Assembly (NCBI GenBank): GCA_905250025.1
Contig: CAJNOJ010000055.1
Coordinates: forward strand, 372,001-436,000
Direction of reading: 5' to 3'
Origin: Adineta ricciae
Taxonomy: Eukaryota; Rotifera; Eurotatoria; Adinetida; Adinetidae
DNA length: 64,000 nucleotides
Below, piece after piece: positions 6,225 to 57,296 of the stretch (positions are counted from its first letter, which is position 1; the number at the start of each line of letters is the position of its first letter). The notes under the pieces are model-generated. The model searched no databases and was not told the DNA's origin. It was given only the letters and a program-made list of their open reading frames with translations. The position numbers and the translations under genes were made by a program.

Positions 6225-8261
6225 ATGACCTGGGTATGTTCATCGGATAATTTTGATATTGTGTTGAAATGTTTATTTTTAACGTTTGGAATAGATATCA
6301 TTGGTTTGCTTGCTCGCTCTGTCGAGCTCAGCTTTTGCCGCTTATGGTTAGTTTTGAAAATAAATTATCTTCTCTCTTGAAATCCTATCGAAACTTTAGG
6401 TCAAGCAGGTGGCTATGGATCAGCCTTACCTAAGATGCTATCTATGATCCGTGAAAACCCAATTCGACGACCAATCTTACCAGTCATCCCACAAGCTTAC
6501 GGACAACAAAAATCCCTTGAACAACCATCGTACGATTTTTCTCATAAGAAGAATCTCTTATCTGATCTATTGATTTATTATTTAGATACGGTCAAGTGCA
6601 ACAACCACAAATACCAGTTGCCTATGGGTAAGAATTGCATAGGGATGAAGTTTGTTTTCCTAATGTCATTTTCCTTTTTCTAGTTCACAAATCTTCACCG
6701 CACCAAAAGTTTTACCAACACAAGGTTATGGTGCTGCTCCTCGCATGTTCGCTTTTGACGAAACACAAGCCCCTCAAGTCCCTCAAGTTCCACAAATCCC
6801 CATCGTCACCGAAGCTGGTAGGATTTCGAAAATGCCTATTTTCAACGAAGAACTTAACATCTGCCATGTGTTATAGACAACCTCTGCCGTGGTCAAGCTC
6901 CAGAAACCGTCATTCCATTAGATGATGGTCGTCGATTTGTTGTCTGTCTCGATGATGGCAAAGGTGCTGAACAATCATGTCCAAAAGGTCTTGTCTACCG
7001 CGCATCCACACGTCGATGTGAACGCAGTATGTTTTCCTTCTTAATCTAAGTTGTAATTAGGTAACAAAAAATTTTCTATTTCTATTCCAATTCAGAATAT
7101 GGCCCACAAGACTACTGTCTTTCCCAACCATGCCTCAACGGTGGTCAATGCCTTGCAACTGACTCAAGCTACCAATGCCAATGTGCCCCTGGCTTCGACG
7201 GTCAAAACTGTGAATTAGATGCCCGCATCTGTCAAACTCAATCTCCATGCGGACAATCACCAGATGCCCGATGCCAATCATTCCGTTTAGGTGCTGCTCT
7301 TCAATACATCTGCATCTTTCAAGATGGCCTCGCTTACGGTCTTAGCAATACACAAGGTTTGTAATGGAGAGTTCAATGAAAAAGCTAGAAGAAGGCAATA
7401 TTTCTTATTGGAATAATTTCTAGTTGTTCCCAGCCCATGCCAAGGTGTCGATGGCCCACAAGCTTTAAGTATCACTAACGCAGGCTTCATTATGTGCGAT
7501 GGTGAACGTATGTTTGTTGAATCATGCCCTGGTGGTACAATTTGGGAAGATGCAAGCAAAGCTTGTGTCTGGCCAGATATGCAAACAACTGTACCACAAC
7601 TTGACGAGCAACTATGTAAGTTTCCTTATTACTGCTCTTCCCTCTATTACGGACCTATCATCTGTCTTTAGCATACGGCTCACAAATCAAACCAAAATTG
7701 ATCCAAGGATACGGTTCACAAATTCTTGAACAACCAAAACTCATTCAAGGATACGGATCTCAAATCCCTGAACAACCAAAGCTCATCCAAGGATACGGAT
7801 CGCAAATCCCTGAACAACCAAAACTCATTCAAGGATACGGATCTCAAATCCCTGAACAACCAAAGCTCATCCAAGGATACGGATCGCAAATCCCTGAACA
7901 ACCAAAGCTCATCCAAGGATACGGATCGCAAATTCCTCAACAACCTAGACTCATTCAAAGATTTGATCTACCAAAACCGATCCAAGGATACGGTTCACGA
8001 ATCCCTGAACAACCCAAACTCATCCAAGGATACGGATCTCAAATCCCTGAACAACCCAAACTCATCCAAGGATACGGATCTCAAATTCCTGAACAACCAA
8101 AACTCATCCAAGGATACGGATCTCAAATCCCTGAACAACCCAAACTCATCCAAGGATACGGATCTCAAATCCCTGAACAACCAAAACTCTTGCCAACATT
8201 TGAACAACCAATACCCGCTCAAGCTTACGGATCTGAAATTACCATTCAACCAGTTTCTTAA
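6225..8261 (+). CDS. Secreted EGF / chitin-binding (peritrophin-A-like) protein with C-terminal 14-residue tandem repeats
   Basis: Nine inferred exons (6225-6233, 6295-6346, 6400-6529, 6586-6627, 6684-6817, 6877-7026, 7096-7356, 7424-7615, 7672-8261) sum to 1560 nt, 519 aa. The first exon is only nine bases. A signal peptide ([18 protein letters not shown]) is followed by a Q/P/G/Y-rich region, a six-Cys-like chitin-binding type 2 segment (about residues 130-175), an EGF-like domain ([19 protein letters not shown]), a second Cys-rich stretch and another peritrophin-like segment ([14 protein letters not shown]). The C-terminus is about 11 copies of [14 protein letters not shown]. The likely role is an extracellular, chitin- or matrix-associated structural protein (cuticle, lorica, jaw or secreted glue). 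This is inferred from domain type; I do not recognise a named orthologue. Confidence 0.8.
7692..8189 (+). repeat. 42-bp coding minisatellite (about 11-12 units)
   Basis: The unit encodes [14 protein letters not shown]. Many units are nearly identical at DNA level, and one divergent unit ([14 protein letters not shown]) lies in the middle. The period of 14 codons keeps all frames open on both strands, which creates long spurious overlapping open frames. Near-identity between units implies recent unequal exchange or gene conversion, so copy number is probably polymorphic. Confidence 0.9.
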
Positions 8262-41194: not shown

Positions 41195-42937
41195 ATGTCG
41201 CGTATACCATCGAAATTAAGTGATGACAACGCTTTGGATCTTGATCCACAGCAAGAATCAGCAATCAGCGGAACGGGGGTAACGAAACAAACTGTAACAA
41301 CGGCGCCCAAGAAGTATTATTATCGTACAATAACTCTACGCGTTCCATTACAGGAAAAAAAGTTTTTGCTAAAGTGTGCTTCAATCAAACAACAAAACAG
41401 AAAGTCAACCCTAGCAGAACGAACGACAAGTACAACCAGTCAAATTGCAACTAAGACCATATTAGGAGTTGCTTTTGCTCTTGCTGTTTCTTATCTTCTG
41501 CGTGATGCTCTTAACAATCGTGGTTTGGAATGGCCTCTACCACGACTGACTCAACCTGAAACTTGTCACATGGATCTCGCGAAAAATAGAGATTTCAATA
41601 GGTATTATGGTCTATCTAACTCAGGAAATCATTTCACGAGTATAACAAATGACGCTTGCAATTCAAAAATCGTCGTCAAATCTCTTTTTCCACCAGCAGT
41701 TCTTAAATCAGATCAACAAGCAAGTTCGTTCATTATCTTGTCGAAGTTTGGCACTGGAAAAACGTCATTACGATGTGAATATTTCAAATCGTTACCGCCC
41801 GCTGATTATTTCAAACTACTTATTTTGAATCAAGACTTGAACAAGTACTTGGACAGATTCGTACAATTCGAAATCTCTCGAAAAACGGAATGTCAAGGTT
41901 CGAACTGTTTAGTGAACTGGTCAACCGATGAATTCGGGCAAGTGATACTGTCTTTGCTGGTCACACAGCTTGTTGATGAGTACGAACAAGAAAAATTCTA
42001 TCTGTCAGATGTGTCATTGGATGACAAGATAGAATTGATTACGATTTTATGTTATTATTATAATGGAGAAGATCTAAAGAAGTTGGAAATATTTGTGAAT
42101 TATCTTTTAGAAAAATCGTCGTCCGAACAATACAGTGCAAGCGATGCTGCTCTTCAATATAAGCAGCAAAATGTCTACTATGAGAAGCCGTTACTTAAGC
42201 ATCTCAAAGACGAGTTAAACAAATTTACTGTGCTGAGTAAAATTTACGAGAAGCTTCACTTGTTAATAGTCGTAGCAGAAGGCGAGGAGTTTGTCAACTT
42301 GCTAGAGCGAAGATCTATGTCTGGAAATGTATTTACACACTTTACGTGGGTATTGAAGATCTTGAATAAGCTCCTCAGGAAATCCGTGGCAGTGATGGTC
42401 GATGGAATTGACGAAAGTCACTACTTTTTGCAAAAAAACACCGAGAGCAGAAAAGCATTAGAATCGTTCTTTCGTTCTTCTGTTTCGAATAAGATTGAGT
42501 CACTGGTACTGGCCCAACATTTCTATTTAGCTCTATTCTATCCTCAAATTAACGCCACTAACTTTCAAGATGCAATTCGTCGAAGTGACAAATTTCTGAC
42601 GCATCCAATACAATGGGATACCAACGCATTGATGAATTACGCTGATACTGTCTTACAAGAGATGAACAGAGATGCTTCAACGGATCGGTGTCGAGAGTTT
42701 ACAGATTTTGCAGCACTGGTCAATTACCACAATCCAAACATCACCGAGATCATTAATCACCTCCAAACACCACGAGAACTTCATCAGTTCGTGCAGAAAT
42801 TAATCGTGGAAATGAACAATAGTGCAAAAGACAACGACAAGCCATTTATCGCTACTTACGAAAATGTCCGAAAAGCATACTCAGAAGCAGAAACTCTCTT
42901 TAATAGAGATGATAAACTAATTGAAACCGAGCCGTAG
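41195..42937 (+). CDS. Intronless 580-aa membrane-anchored predicted P-loop NTPase
   Basis: A single open frame of 580 codons starts at the ATG at 41195, with no intron, in a region where introns occur about every 150 bp. A disordered N-terminus is followed by one probable membrane helix (residues about 88-103, ILGVAFALAVSYLL). A Walker A-like motif SKFGTGKTS lies at about 183-191, and a Walker B-like hydrophobic strand plus acid pair, VAVMVDGIDES, at about 398-408. The rest is helix-rich. The layout resembles STAND, KAP or Sll1717-type P-loop ATPases better than AAA+ or kinases. I do not recognise a named animal orthologue. The intronless structure suggests horizontal transfer or retroposition; no A-tail was noted. 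Function unknown. Confidence 0.7.
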   Translation: MSRIPSKLSDDNALDLDPQQESAISGTGVTKQTVTTAPKKYYYRTITLRVPLQEKKFLLKCASIKQQNRKSTLAERTTSTTSQIATKTILGVAFALAVSYLLRDALNNRGLEWPLPRLTQPETCHMDLAKNRDFNRYYGLSNSGNHFTSITNDACNSKIVVKSLFPPAVLKSDQQASSFIILSKFGTGKTSLRCEYFKSLPPADYFKLLILNQDLNKYLDRFVQFEISRKTECQGSNCLVNWSTDEFGQVILSLLVTQLVDEYEQEKFYLSDVSLDDKIELITILCYYYNGEDLKKLEIFVNYLLEKSSSEQYSASDAALQYKQQNVYYEKPLLKHLKDELNKFTVLSKIYEKLHLLIVVAEGEEFVNLLERRSMSGNVFTHFTWVLKILNKLLRKSVAVMVDGIDESHYFLQKNTESRKALESFFRSSVSNKIESLVLAQHFYLALFYPQINATNFQDAIRRSDKFLTHPIQWDTNALMNYADTVLQEMNRDASTDRCREFTDFAALVNYHNPNITEIINHLQTPRELHQFVQKLIVEMNNSAKDNDKPFIATYENVRKAYSEAETLFNRDDKLIETEP

Positions 42938-43415: not shown

Positions 43416-46400
43416 ATGGCACAACAACAAACAAATGGCAACGGTGCTCTTGATTTAAGTTTAGATGATTCGAAGAAACAAGGAACAAGGTACGTGTCGT
43501 GTTCGATTCTCGCTCGGAACTCCCATTCACTGGTTGACTCTTAACCATGACAATGGAAGTTTTTCCTGTAAATTGATATATTAGGGTTTAGCTTTTGTTT
43601 TTCGTTTTGCTCCGAAGGCATTTTAATTACAAAAATGATAGCATGAGTAGCACCACCATCATCCTTTCTTTTCCTTCTCAGAAACGGTCCTTCCGCTGCC
43701 ATGGCTGTTTTTGCTTTCAACGTTCTTCGGTTCCGTTTCTCGTCTCGCACCAAGCAGCCTTGAAAGAACAGAAAAAGAAGAGACCGAGCGTTGGAGAGAA
43801 TCATAAAAAAAAGCAAAAGAATGAGAAATAGCGTCAAGTTGATATGAGAAACAGCGGTAAAGAGGACATCGATGCATCATCTTAGTGACTACAATATGTT
43901 TCAGAAACAAGAAGAATGAGTTGAAAGTGCACGTATAGTCATTAGTCGCTCGATCCATTTGCTCTTGTCGCATTCAATCATATTTAACCATGATTATTTC
44001 GCCATCTAATATCTTATGAAACCGTAAGTAAGATCAAGATGATTTATTGTTTGTTTGGGGTTTTTTTTGTCACAATTTCGTCGAAGAATTGCTCAGGTAC
44101 ATTGCTAAACCGACATTAGTTAGGGGTCAGGGAATCCGAGAATGGAAATTTTCTTCGCAAAGATAATATTTCACTCGAACGTTCCGTTCTTACAAATCCT
44201 TTGAATATAAAGTAACAAGTGATTTTTTTTTCTTTCGATGATTGGATCGTTTTCTGCAAATGTTCATGAGAGAACACTATCCTTGTGGGCGTCTACATCC
44301 GTTTTAATAATAAAAACCTTTGAATAACTGCAGGAGATCTTTTTCTTCTCCTGTGCAAAGTAACTGTAAACATTTCATTATATTCTTTTTAACCTTTAGT
44401 TTCTCGTGTAACGGAAGTTCGAGCAAAATGTCTCATTTTCTGATAAGATTCATGGTTAAAGATAATCCTTCGGAGAATATAGTTGTTGGCTGAAACAAAA
44501 ACATTATCTTTCATTCATCCGGAAAACTGCTACAAATTTTCTTCTTCTTTTGCTTCTTTGATTGTCATCATATTTCTTGTCAAAGGAGAAAAAGCTGTTT
44601 TTTGACTTCTATTAGCAATGCCTTTTCAATTGATGCGTTTAGATAGATCGAATGATTGATTGATAGATGAAATAAGACATATCATGTCTGAAGGACTTCT
44701 GCATCTTATCATCAACCTCCGATCGTGTTAATCTTCGATTGATTAATTTTTTCTCTCTTGTGTTTTTTTTAGAGTCTTCAAAAAAAGTAGTCCCAATTCG
44801 AAGGTAAGAATAGAAGACGAATTCTTCCGAAGATCTAGCTCATCCTTTGTTTAGATAACATGTTACCTTGGAAAACGAGATTTTATCGACTATTCGGATC
44901 ATATCGATCCGATCGGTATGTTTACATTCTTGAAAAAAGGATTTGTGCTAGACCAATCTGTTTATTTTAGATGGCGTCGTTCTAGTCGATCCGGAATATA
45001 TCAAAGATCGTAAAGTATATGCATGTGTCTTAGCAGGTACAGTGAAAGTGTTTGTCCGACTGGTGTACACATGATTTATTTCTTGATTAATATAGCATTT
45101 CGCTATGGTCGCGAGGATCTCGATGTTCTTGGTCTAACATTTCGAAAAGATTTATTCTGCTCGACTCAACAAATCTATCCTCCTATTGATGATCAGAAGA
45201 AGCCTTTAACCCATTTACAACAGCGACTCCTACGGAAATTGGGACCCAACGCGTATCCATTCTACTTTGAAGTAAGACTTCCTTATGAAAAATTCTTCAT
45301 CTATGTTCCGTACTTAGATTCCACAAAGCGCGCCTGCATCTGTTACGTTACAACCAGCTGCTGGTGATACAGGCAAGCCATGTGGTGTGGATTATGAACT
45401 AAAAACTTATGTCGCTGAGACAAGTGAAGATAAATCTCATAAACGAAGTTCAGTTCGCTTAGCAATAAGAAAATTAACTTATGCCCCGGAAACTCCTGCC
45501 CCTCAGCCCGTCATCGAAGCACATAAGGACTTCATGATGTCACCAGCACCACTCCACCTTGAGTGCACACTCGATAAAGAGGTAGAACATTTTGAAATTT
45601 TCCTTCGGTTGAGTGGTCTTCTACATAAAACGATTCTAGATGTATTATCACGGTGAAAGTATCAACGTTAATGTCGTGGTTACAAATAATTCCAGCAAAA
45701 CCTTACGAAAAATTCGTATATCAGGTAAGAATCGGTCGACTGAGACGACGATGTTGGTCTTCGCGTTGAGTAGTTCGCCTTTTCTTCTTCTGAAAATAAA
45801 ACTTGTCTATCTCTCAATCCCTGATTACCGATCTGTAGTTGTTCAATATGCTGAAATCTGCTTGTACTCATCAACACAGTACAAGTGTGATGTAGCTGTT
45901 ATTGAATCAAGGTAGGTTACTTTTTTTTCTCGATTTGCTCGGTATTTTATTATGTTTTGTCTCTCTCTCTCTTTCTCTCTTTAACTGTCGCTTTGATCGA
46001 TGTTGCGATTTAATGTTGTGCGCTTTGAAAATATATTCTAGTTAAGCAATATGCTGAAATCTGTATGTTTACCAATGCTCATTACAAATGTACTGTCGCC
46101 GAATTGGAAACTGAGTATGCATTTTGTTTCTTCTATGCTTGATTTTTGCTTTTGATTATGAAGTCGAAATCGCTAACATTTACTAACTGTTCTCTCGATG
46201 TTTTTCAGCGAAGGCTTTCCAATCACGCCCTGTTCGACTTTAACGAAAGTGTATTCTTTAACGCCGCTCTTGGCAAACAACAAAGATAAACGTGGTCTTG
46301 CTCTGGATGGCAAATTGAAGCACGAAGATACGAATTTAGCTTCGTCAACTATGTAAGTTTATTCGCGAATGAACCTGTTGACGTTCGTAATTGCTTCATC

Positions 46401-46863
46401 GTAGAATTCGAAGTACAACACAAAAGGAAAATCTTGGCATCATCGTGCAATACAAAGTGAAAGTTAAATTAATTGTCGCTATGGGAGGGTTTGTTCATTA
46501 CTTGACATTCTTTGCTAATTACATACGATTTGGATCTTTTGCAGAGATTTAGCAGTGGAATTACCATTTACGTTGACACATCCTAAACCTCCGCCAACAC
46601 CTTCACCATCTCGACAACTCGAGTTTGTTACTAATCAACAGAATGTGAACGATCAACAAGCAGTTGACATCCCAATCGATCATAATTTGATTCAACTTGA
46701 CACAAAGTTTGTTTTCCTACGTTTCATCTGAACAAACCGATTCATCGATTCTTTGAAATTTAGTTTCGACAATACTGGTCATGACGATGACTTCATATTC
46801 GAAGAATTTGCACGTATACGCCTCAAAGGTCATGACAGTGGTCATGAAGATACGGAAGCCTAG
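43416..46863 (+). CDS. ARRB: Beta-arrestin with a duplicated, mutually exclusive exon
   Basis: Beta-arrestin binds phosphorylated GPCRs, ends G-protein coupling and links them to clathrin. Exons: 43416-43489, 44773-44803, 44855-44915, 44971-45036, 45096-45271, 45318-45581, 45640-45724, 45839-45911 or 46042-46114, 46209-46352, 46405-46488, 46545-46706, 46764-46863. With one of the two alternative exons the total is 1320 nt, 439 aa. Visible features are [20 protein letters not shown], the finger loop [16 protein letters not shown], the lariat-loop region [20 protein letters not shown], a clathrin box LIQLD and the AP2-binding tail [16 protein letters not shown]. It is a non-visual arrestin on the basis of the last two motifs. 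Intron 1 is 1283 bp, far longer than all others. Including both or neither alternative exon shifts the frame. Confidence 0.96.
45839..45911 (+). other. Beta-arrestin alternative exon 8A (73 nt)
   Basis: This exon is bounded by CTGTAG and GTAGGT, with phase 1 at entry and phase 2 at exit. It encodes [20 protein letters not shown] and a few more residues. It is homologous over its whole length to the exon at 46042-46114. Confidence 0.9.
46042..46114 (+). other. Beta-arrestin alternative exon 8B (73 nt)
   Basis: This exon is bounded by TTCTAG and GTATGC, with the same phases and length as exon 8A. It encodes [20 protein letters not shown] and a few more residues. Splicing either 8A or 8B between 45724 and 46209 preserves the frame; splicing both does not. 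Confidence 0.9.
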
Positions 46864-56132: not shown

Positions 56133-56522
56133 CCTTTAGTTGCAACAAAGACTGACACATATACGTTATCATCATACAAAAGAGATTTCGCTTATCACAA
56201 ACGAATGTGAGAGAGATAGACTTCATCGAGTTAACTTTAAGGTTAAATAAAGAGTTTTTCTTGAACAAAAGCATGTTATTTTTCACAAAAAAAAGATTTG
56301 TAGTGAGACTTTTATTACAGCCGTAATCAACATTCTCAAATCTTGTTTTTCGGATTTACGATTTATTTATCGTTTGTATACTACTGTTACAATGCGATAT
56401 TTTATCGTGCTTCTATTTGACGAACAATAAATCCAAATGAAGTATAACCAGTTGTTCGGTCGATAAATACAAAATCCAAATCATTTCTTTAAATATCTTA
56501 CTGAGTGCACGAAAGAAAAAAG
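56133..56522. other. Divergent promoter region
   Basis: This 390-bp region is shared by the beta-helix gene (-) and the AceTr gene (+). It is AT-rich with no obvious TATA box at the expected distance. Confidence 0.45.
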
Positions 56523-57296
56523 ATGTCTTCGACAGAGCCCGGTCTTTATGAAAATGTCGACGCTTCAACACGACAAGCCTATGAACGGTTTGTCGAATTT
56601 GAGCGTTTGATGAAATCATACTCGGCACAATCATCACCACACTCACGTCTAAATCCAACACCACTTGGTCTTTGTGCGTTTGCATTGACGACATTTATTC
56701 TTTCGATGTACAATGCAGGCGTCGGAATACCTGTAACAGCTTCACATGGTGTTGTTATGGGTCTCGCTCTTTTCTACGGTGGTTTAATTCAACTCATAGC
56801 TGGTTTACTAGAATTTCGAATTGGAAATAATTTCGGTGCGTTGGCTTTTTGCTCGTATGGTGGCTTTTGGCTTGGATTATCTTCGTTATACAGTGGATTT
56901 TTCGGTTTTATAACTTACATGGATTCAACAACAGTGAACCAAGCATTTGGTGTATTTTTTCTCGCTTGGACGATTTTTACAGCAGCTATGCTCGTCTCAT
57001 CTCTTCGAACGAATGTTGCTCTAGTTGCATTATTTGCGTTTTTAACCCTCACATTTATTCTTCTTACAGCGTGTAAGTTTCAAAACAACGATTACAACCT
57101 ACAACGAGCAGCGGGTGCTTTTGGAATCATTACATCTATCATTGCTTGGTATGCAGCTTTTGCCAGTTTACTCAAACAAGGAGAGAACTCGTACTTTTCA
57201 CTGCCTGTGTATAATTTAGCACCTCAAGTATCGCAAGTGCCAACAATTGTGATTGATAAACCATCAAGGTCGAACATTCGTTCTCAAAAAATGTAA
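56523..57296 (+). CDS. AceTr (GPR1/FUN34/SatP-YaaH) family acetate/succinate transporter
   Basis: This is an intronless 257-aa protein with a cytosolic N-terminus and about six helices. The family signature NPTPLGLCAFALTTFILSMY matches the NPAPLGL motif at the first helix. Further family features are ASHGVVMGLALFYGGLIQLI, FGALAFCSYGGFWLG and the C-terminal helix with GIITSIIAWYAAFASLL. Members move acetate or succinate across membranes and are common in bacteria, archaea and fungi but rare in animals. The start at 56523 is the first ATG; an upstream in-frame GTG is ignored. The tail of about 35 residues is Ser/Pro-rich. Intronless structure plus taxonomic distribution suggests acquisition from a fungus or bacterium. 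Confidence 0.93.
   Translation: MSSTEPGLYENVDASTRQAYERFVEFERLMKSYSAQSSPHSRLNPTPLGLCAFALTTFILSMYNAGVGIPVTASHGVVMGLALFYGGLIQLIAGLLEFRIGNNFGALAFCSYGGFWLGLSSLYSGFFGFITYMDSTTVNQAFGVFFLAWTIFTAAMLVSSLRTNVALVALFAFLTLTFILLTACKFQNNDYNLQRAAGAFGIITSIIAWYAAFASLLKQGENSYFSLPVYNLAPQVSQVPTIVIDKPSRSNIRSQKM

Follow-up and report, generated by a model that had tools for sequence, protein, structure and literature searches.

Can a single arrestin gene supply two arrestins that differ in a receptor-facing segment? The question is raised by two neighboring exons in the window (the whole 64,000-nucleotide stretch of DNA analyzed here), which sits on contig C55 of a 130-Mb assembly of 1033 contigs, and which a sequence-only reading had described as mutually exclusive alternatives that swap the C-loop of a beta-arrestin. 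The account that we favor, with a probability of roughly 0.72, is that the one beta/visual-type arrestin detected carries two mutually exclusive exons whose choice swaps a receptor-preference element and would thereby give two arrestins from one gene.

The arrestin gene and its tandem exons

The arrestin gene is predicted, by a homology-guided model and translation, to extend on the forward strand from start codon to stop over 43416..46863. The modeled mRNA has 12 coding exons, with either of two alternative exons (A or B) as the eighth, and its product is 439 aa long either way. Exons 1–7 occupy 43416-43489, 44773-44803, 44855-44915, 44971-45036, 45096-45271, 45318-45581, and 45640-45724, and exons 9–12 occupy 46209-46352, 46405-46488, 46545-46706, and 46764-46863. 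Exon 7 (45640..45724) is constitutive, ends in phase 1, and is 85 nt long in the three other gene copies as well; from it, intron 7-A (45725..45838, 114 nt) leads to exon A (45839..45911, 73 nt), intron A-B (45912..46041, 130 nt) leads on to exon B (46042..46114, 73 nt), and intron B-9 (46115..46208, 94 nt) is followed by the constitutive exon 9 (46209..46352), which is entered in phase 2 and holds an 18-residue gate/lariat segment.

Both isoforms carry Arrestin_N and Arrestin_C above the curated Pfam cut-off. Among PDB entries, isoform A resembles beta-arrestins over residues 23–428, with E-values down to 1.4e-161. Its alignment retains both the gate/lariat segment and a C-tail motif, FEEFAR, which reads FEDFAR in beta-arrestins; we take the FEDFAR-type motif to be the AP-2 motif, and the role of this motif, like that of the gate/lariat segment, is presumed here. 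Judged by both domains and by full-length similarity to solved beta-arrestins, the locus encodes a true (beta/visual) arrestin. Directly upstream lies an unbroken 580-aa open reading frame (41195-42937) with no Pfam match at E 0.001.

The tandem, homologous 73-nt exons of identical phase were recovered as first described. They share 45 of 73 bases, each is preceded by AG and followed by GT, and each runs from phase 1 to phase 2 and encodes 25 residues when the split codons are counted. The pair is thus tandem, homologous, equal in length and phase, and flanked on either side by constitutive exons. When residues 2–24 of the A peptide were compared with the three frames of 45912-46208, the best score was 73, as against a maximum of 36 among 3000 Markov-shuffled sequences, so the resemblance of A and B goes beyond chance. 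Joining exon 7 through A or B singly to exon 9 keeps the frame, inclusion of both brings a stop codon immediately past the A codons, and skipping of both brings a stop past 11 codons; these early stops recur in all four arrestin copies of the genome.

Four gene copies and the age of the exon pair

The four copies lie on contigs C55, C107, C63, and C309, and all of them contain the exon pair, with A and B at 73 nt and bordered by AG and GT throughout. They form two near-identical pairs and so count as two independent lineages: C55 and C107 differ by a dS of 0.095 over exons 2–6, C63 and C309 differ by one base across exons A and B, and C55 is saturated against C63 or C309 (dS about 1.6–2.3 where finite, dN 0.03–0.08). 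Neighboring genes are shared between the pairs, in that a block at 50–64 kb of the window matches the neighbors of the C63 arrestin in the same order, and a block at 1.8–7.7 kb is matched by C309 as well as by C63, where it is inverted; the two pairs are therefore ohnologs and do not reflect a recent gene copy. Elsewhere in the window, 7698-8261 is a repetitive open reading frame with a 13-residue unit, and 56505-57296 is an unbroken 263-aa frame that belongs to the GPR1/FUN34/yaaH family (PF01184), which is better known from microbes; this possible horizontal gene has six further places in the genome besides its own.

Does the genome hold other arrestins of this type? In two genome searches with pieces of the arrestin C-domain at E-values up to 10, all matches (10 of 10 and 25 of 25, with the best 9 and 21 candidates scored) fell within the same four loci. 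The Arrestin_C profile found 40 places, of which 37 lie above the cut-off and one of those below it is the C63 gene; as a control, the same profile gave a match, below cut-off, in one of 14 genomes. From their unbroken frames, the other 39 places are taken to be alpha-arrestin-type genes, and with several of these places outside the four arrestin genes sharing contigs (C118, C68, C344), they look like an expanded alpha-arrestin-type family. Together, the C-domain searches and the profile matches suggest that the genome has one beta/visual-type arrestin, in two ohnologous forms. A decayed second arrestin fragment (L014:7040-7501; C63:282539-283000) follows the C63 gene at a distance of about 2 kb on its downstream side; in it, pieces of exons 4–5 run into pieces of exons 11–12 and an in-frame stop was noted by eye; it gave no match to exons A, B, or 9.

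The genome looks bdelloid by its spliced-leader matches. A query that we take to be the bdelloid spliced leader gave no match in an exact search of the genome and 44 places when up to two mismatches were allowed (41 with one, three with two), while its reversed control gave none. Copies resembling the spliced leader recur on C6, C8, C77, and C99 in divergent pairs with a spacing of about 153 bases. A telomere-type repeat was discarded as a bdelloid marker, being uninformative because its reversed control was equally frequent. Bdelloid genomes are described as ancient tetraploids composed of two near-identical pairs, with a tetraploidy that predates the divergence of bdelloid families (PMC5916493), and the four arrestin copies in their two near-identical pairs fit that description. 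The ohnolog distance here exceeds every mean that the study gives, the nearest being 1.27 for Adineta ricciae, and the within-pair distance is larger than its figure for A. vaga (0.05) and smaller than that for A. ricciae (0.14) (PMC5916493).

In a quartet test, the A exons of the two ohnologs group together, as do their B exons (15 of 16 informative sites; P-AU 0.002 for both alternative topologies), which places the exon duplication before the ohnolog split. Both exons are under purifying selection: between C55 and C63, exon A has accumulated 11 synonymous and 4 replacement changes (neutral P 3.7e-5) and exon B 12.5 and 4.5 (neutral P 5.4e-6). The synonymous distance between the ohnologs is saturated (pS 0.66–0.87), and the two exons have a dN of 0.07–0.08, roughly double the 0.03–0.04 of the constitutive exons used for comparison. 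Neither exon lacks conservation or splice-site integrity in its relatives, here the ohnologs of the same genome. The A/B pair is real, old, and conserved, and it is very likely mutually exclusive at the protein level. Among pattern matches in viral and prokaryote contigs, no relative was found (0/18 and 0/224, respectively). A and B share 17 identical bases (45844-45860 and 46047-46063) on C55 and C107, an identity absent from C63 and C309, which reflects either retention or a short conversion from one exon to the other.

Fixed across the ohnologs are A/B differences at 8 of the 25 residues (236, 244–248, 252, and 259). They occupy five of the seven loop positions 9–15 (residues 243–249) and three of the 18 positions elsewhere (Fisher P 0.017). 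Drawing the loop post hoc as positions 10–14 (residues 244–248) sharpens the contrast to 5/5 versus 3/20 (P 0.001); as this narrower boundary was picked after the data had been seen, 0.017 is the safer figure.

The exchanged segment and what it may do

On a residue ruler taken from the beta-arrestin-1 chain in the PDB alignment, exon A or B, with split codons included, corresponds to residues 235–259 of beta-arrestin-1, which bears out the assignment of the segment to the arrestin C-loop (the name itself varies; contacts at 311–315 are called the C-loop in PMC9977954). In chimeras of arrestin-1 and arrestin-2, arrestin-2 residues 233–262 are the C-domain element said to govern receptor preference, of which the exchanged exon supplies 25 of 30 residues, and full reversal of receptor preference is reported with the N-domain element (45–86) swapped too (PMC11173308); the N-domain element is constitutive in the rotifer gene. 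Loop residues 244–248 read YSSTQ in A and FTNAH in B, and the receptor-loop contacts reported for solved complexes are 241, 243–247, and 249–251 (PMC10866553). The same stretch bears on lipid binding, with phosphoinositide bound in a receptor complex by residues 232, 236, 250, 324, and 326, and a triple change at 232/236/250 causing a 15-fold loss of potency at one receptor (PMC10447241; PMC10866553). Residue 236 is Val in A and Lys in B in both ohnologs, residue 250 is Lys or Arg in A and Lys in B, and in the constitutive exons the alignment places Arg at 232 and Lys at both 324 and 326.

In the mechanism that we favor, splicing would link exon 7 with either A or B and continue from there to exon 9, and this choice would swap residues 235–259, comprising the C-loop with its flanking strands and most of the C-domain preference element. 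The loop at 244–248 (YSSTQ or FTNAH) and the basic phosphoinositide residue 236 (Val or Lys) would change together, and the outcome would be two arrestins differing in receptor preference and/or in anchoring to membrane and coated pits. We infer that both exons are spliced in, that cell type or state governs the choice, and that the products differ in how they bind receptors or lipids.

How strongly would such a swap be expected to shift receptor selectivity? In the four mammalian arrestins, the second loop position is Tyr (visual) or Phe (non-visual) and the third is Ser/Asn (PMC10219436); the rotifer exons have Tyr-Ser in A and Phe-Thr in B, with the reservation that a visual/non-visual rule drawn from four mammalian arrestins may not carry to rotifers. 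Single changes have been mild or without effect in several cases. A Phe-to-Tyr change at this second loop position left the receptor preference of arrestin-2 unchanged, and F245A in arrestin-3 had no significant effect on binding at any of four receptors, although the abstract of that study speaks of mild, variable effects (PMC6420155). In arrestin-1, replacement of Leu249 or Tyr250 by Ala slightly weakened binding to phosphorylated light-activated rhodopsin, these changes and Ser251Ala weakened binding to the unphosphorylated rhodopsin form, and changes at Asp253 severely reduced the binding of a truncated mutant but not that of the wild type (PMC10219436). Given these results and a reported reversal of preference that used the N-domain element as well, the proposal that one gene gives two receptor-selectivity variants is plausible and no stronger than that.

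An unlikely alternative is that the swap is real and serves another role, for instance in protein stability, in kinase scaffolding, or in the association of arrestin with itself. The inositol hexakisphosphate site also includes residues 236 and 250 (PMC5501109), mutants of this site alter arrestin-3 oligomerization and its interaction with Mdm2 (PMC11173308), and such mutants have been assayed for JNK3 activation (PMC5681653), all of which would suit a function away from the receptor; the fixed differences, however, cluster at loop positions that are mostly reported receptor contacts.

Exon choice and comparison with known systems

The introns around A and B measure 89–130 nt in the four copies and the other introns measured 46–64 nt, apart from a long intron 1 and a 270-nt interval on C63, probably an assembly artefact, which takes in both an N and the repeated exon 7; the longer introns would leave room for regulatory sequence. 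Conserved intronic pairing of the Dscam docking/selector type was not seen by eye in these introns, which are 47–56% identical between ohnologs, barely alignable, and represent two independent lineages.

Splice-site scores came from a matrix whose training set was limited to constitutive sites of C55 and C63, and they are rough. By these scores, exon A has the weakest acceptor of each copy (2.8–4.9) and a strong donor (8.4–9.0), and exon B has a weak donor (3.2–5.5, although a few constitutive donors are no stronger) and an acceptor of 5.4–8.1. Three candidate causes of exclusivity were rejected. Steric hindrance fails in that the A-B intron is 111–130 nt long, while this gene also has a 46-nt intron; U2/U12 incompatibility fails in that all borders are ordinary GT-AG, with no donor among those listed conforming to the U12 consensus; and splice-site strength fails in that A's strong donor and B's better acceptor leave A-to-B joining not disfavored.

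The claim that the reading frame forces a one-of-two choice consequently holds in part. At the protein level it stands, as inclusion of both exons or of neither ends in an early stop; at the RNA level it does not, since the A-to-B intron is of spliceable length and the weak sites are not the ones at its two ends. The same observations invite a distinctly improbable alternative, regulated poison splicing, under which mRNAs with both exons or neither are degraded and the choice mainly tunes the level of arrestin. The early stops in all four copies agree with such a scheme, as do the length of the A-to-B intron and its splice sites, which are not the weak ones, but it leaves unexplained both the purifying selection on the two frames and the concentration of fixed differences in the loop. 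It is more improbable still that one exon is a little-used or cryptic passenger duplicate and that a single exon suffices: the weak donor of B and the weak acceptor of A could be so read, yet both frames have been kept with few replacements over a saturated synonymous distance (pS 0.66–0.87), and exact length and splice borders persist in four of four copies.

The gene carries single-N joins, probably assembly joins, on C63 (L014:3543) and on C309 (L013 reverse strand 3232); parts of exons 6–7 are repeated across the N on C63, and on C309 there is no match to exons 2–5 and the first part of exon 6 before it. An assembly or annotation artefact, for which these joins and the repeated exon 7 of C63 might speak, is in effect refuted, because the A/B region is free of N and the same arrangement recurs on all four contigs, of which two show no N in the stretch examined, and so is no peculiarity of C55.

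Exon A contains a possible element of RNA-level control. A hairpin at 45861..45885 on the forward strand, with 8 Watson-Crick pairs (CTTGTACT / AGTACAAG) closing a 9-nt loop (CATCAACAC), spans the loop codons. Both ohnologs retain it, although two of its pairs have changed in both partners: TTG becomes CTG at a Leu codon, AAG (Lys) becomes AGA (Arg), and TGC becomes TGT at the Cys codon of the outer pair. Among 20000 independent recoding pairs, 8 reached an equally long common stem and 4 of these had as many covarying pairs, and the chance of a stem of 8 anywhere in a single recoded A sequence is 0.076. Given the changed codons, all 8 pairs would survive with probability 0.0069 under Watson-Crick pairing and 0.026 with G-U pairs allowed, both figures being prior to correction for the several exons examined. 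A scan of nine further exon stretches, covering all but exons 1, 11, and 12, found no shared stem of more than 6 pairs. The hairpin is thus a suggestive lead for RNA-level control of exon choice. Synonymous conservation of the YSSTQY codons was set aside as unexceptional, the six-codon identical run being tied with that of TFRKDL in exon 5.

A bolder version of events would have bdelloids rebuild the visual/non-visual split by splicing, with A as a visual-like form (Tyr in the loop, basic residue 236 lost), B as a non-visual, membrane-anchoring form, and the choice steered by the exon-A hairpin; we regard it as doubtful, if worth entertaining. Our preferred reading remains the more general one, in which a mutually exclusive exon pair swaps the receptor-preference element.

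How does this arrangement compare with what has been described? By titles and the starts of abstracts, no report of an arrestin C-loop swapped by a second exon was found among the open-licence papers listed, and no paper on a rotifer arrestin was found among those listed by title. In a curated study of deuterostome arrestin gene structures, the main text contains none of "mutually exclusive," "alternative splic," and "exon duplication," and isoforms are referred to a supplement (PMC5501109). Among known arrestins, the vertebrate non-visual ARRB1 and ARRB2 belong to the same family and keep the C-tail motif, and alternative splicing is common to both sides of the comparison. The known forms are nevertheless of another kind: skipping of ARRB1 exon 13 leaves out a short exon (PMC12116798), and p44 of arrestin-1 is truncated at the C-terminus (PMC11173308), unlike the C-loop swap proposed here. 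The chimeras of arrestin-1 and arrestin-2 (45–86 and 233–262) come closer, since exon A or B covers most of their C-domain element, but they were engineered in the laboratory (PMC11173308). Sea urchin ARR0.1 and ARR0.2 have diversified at receptor-binding residues such as 242, 245, 247, 248, and 249 (PMC5501109); these are separate genes, whereas the diversified part of the rotifer arrestin is an exon within one gene. If true, a natural and old swap in the preference element would give a single arrestin one means of widening what it does, and the exon pair offers proteins that differ only in that element, making the roles of the C-loop and of residue 236 directly testable.

The closest functional analogue comes from G-alpha subunits. 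In GNAO (exons 7.1-8.1 and 7.2-8.2) and in lancelet G-alpha genes, the receptor-coupling region is swapped by locally duplicated, mutually exclusive exons (PMC5896119). The G-alpha swaps differ in that they concern a G protein, a terminal exon pair in the case of GNAO, and another lineage, and they are analogues of the rotifer pair, not relatives (PMC5896119). As G-alpha subunits use the same trick, our reading, if true, would mean that two partners of GPCRs, G-alpha and arrestin, have independently evolved swaps of receptor-facing exons (PMC5896119).
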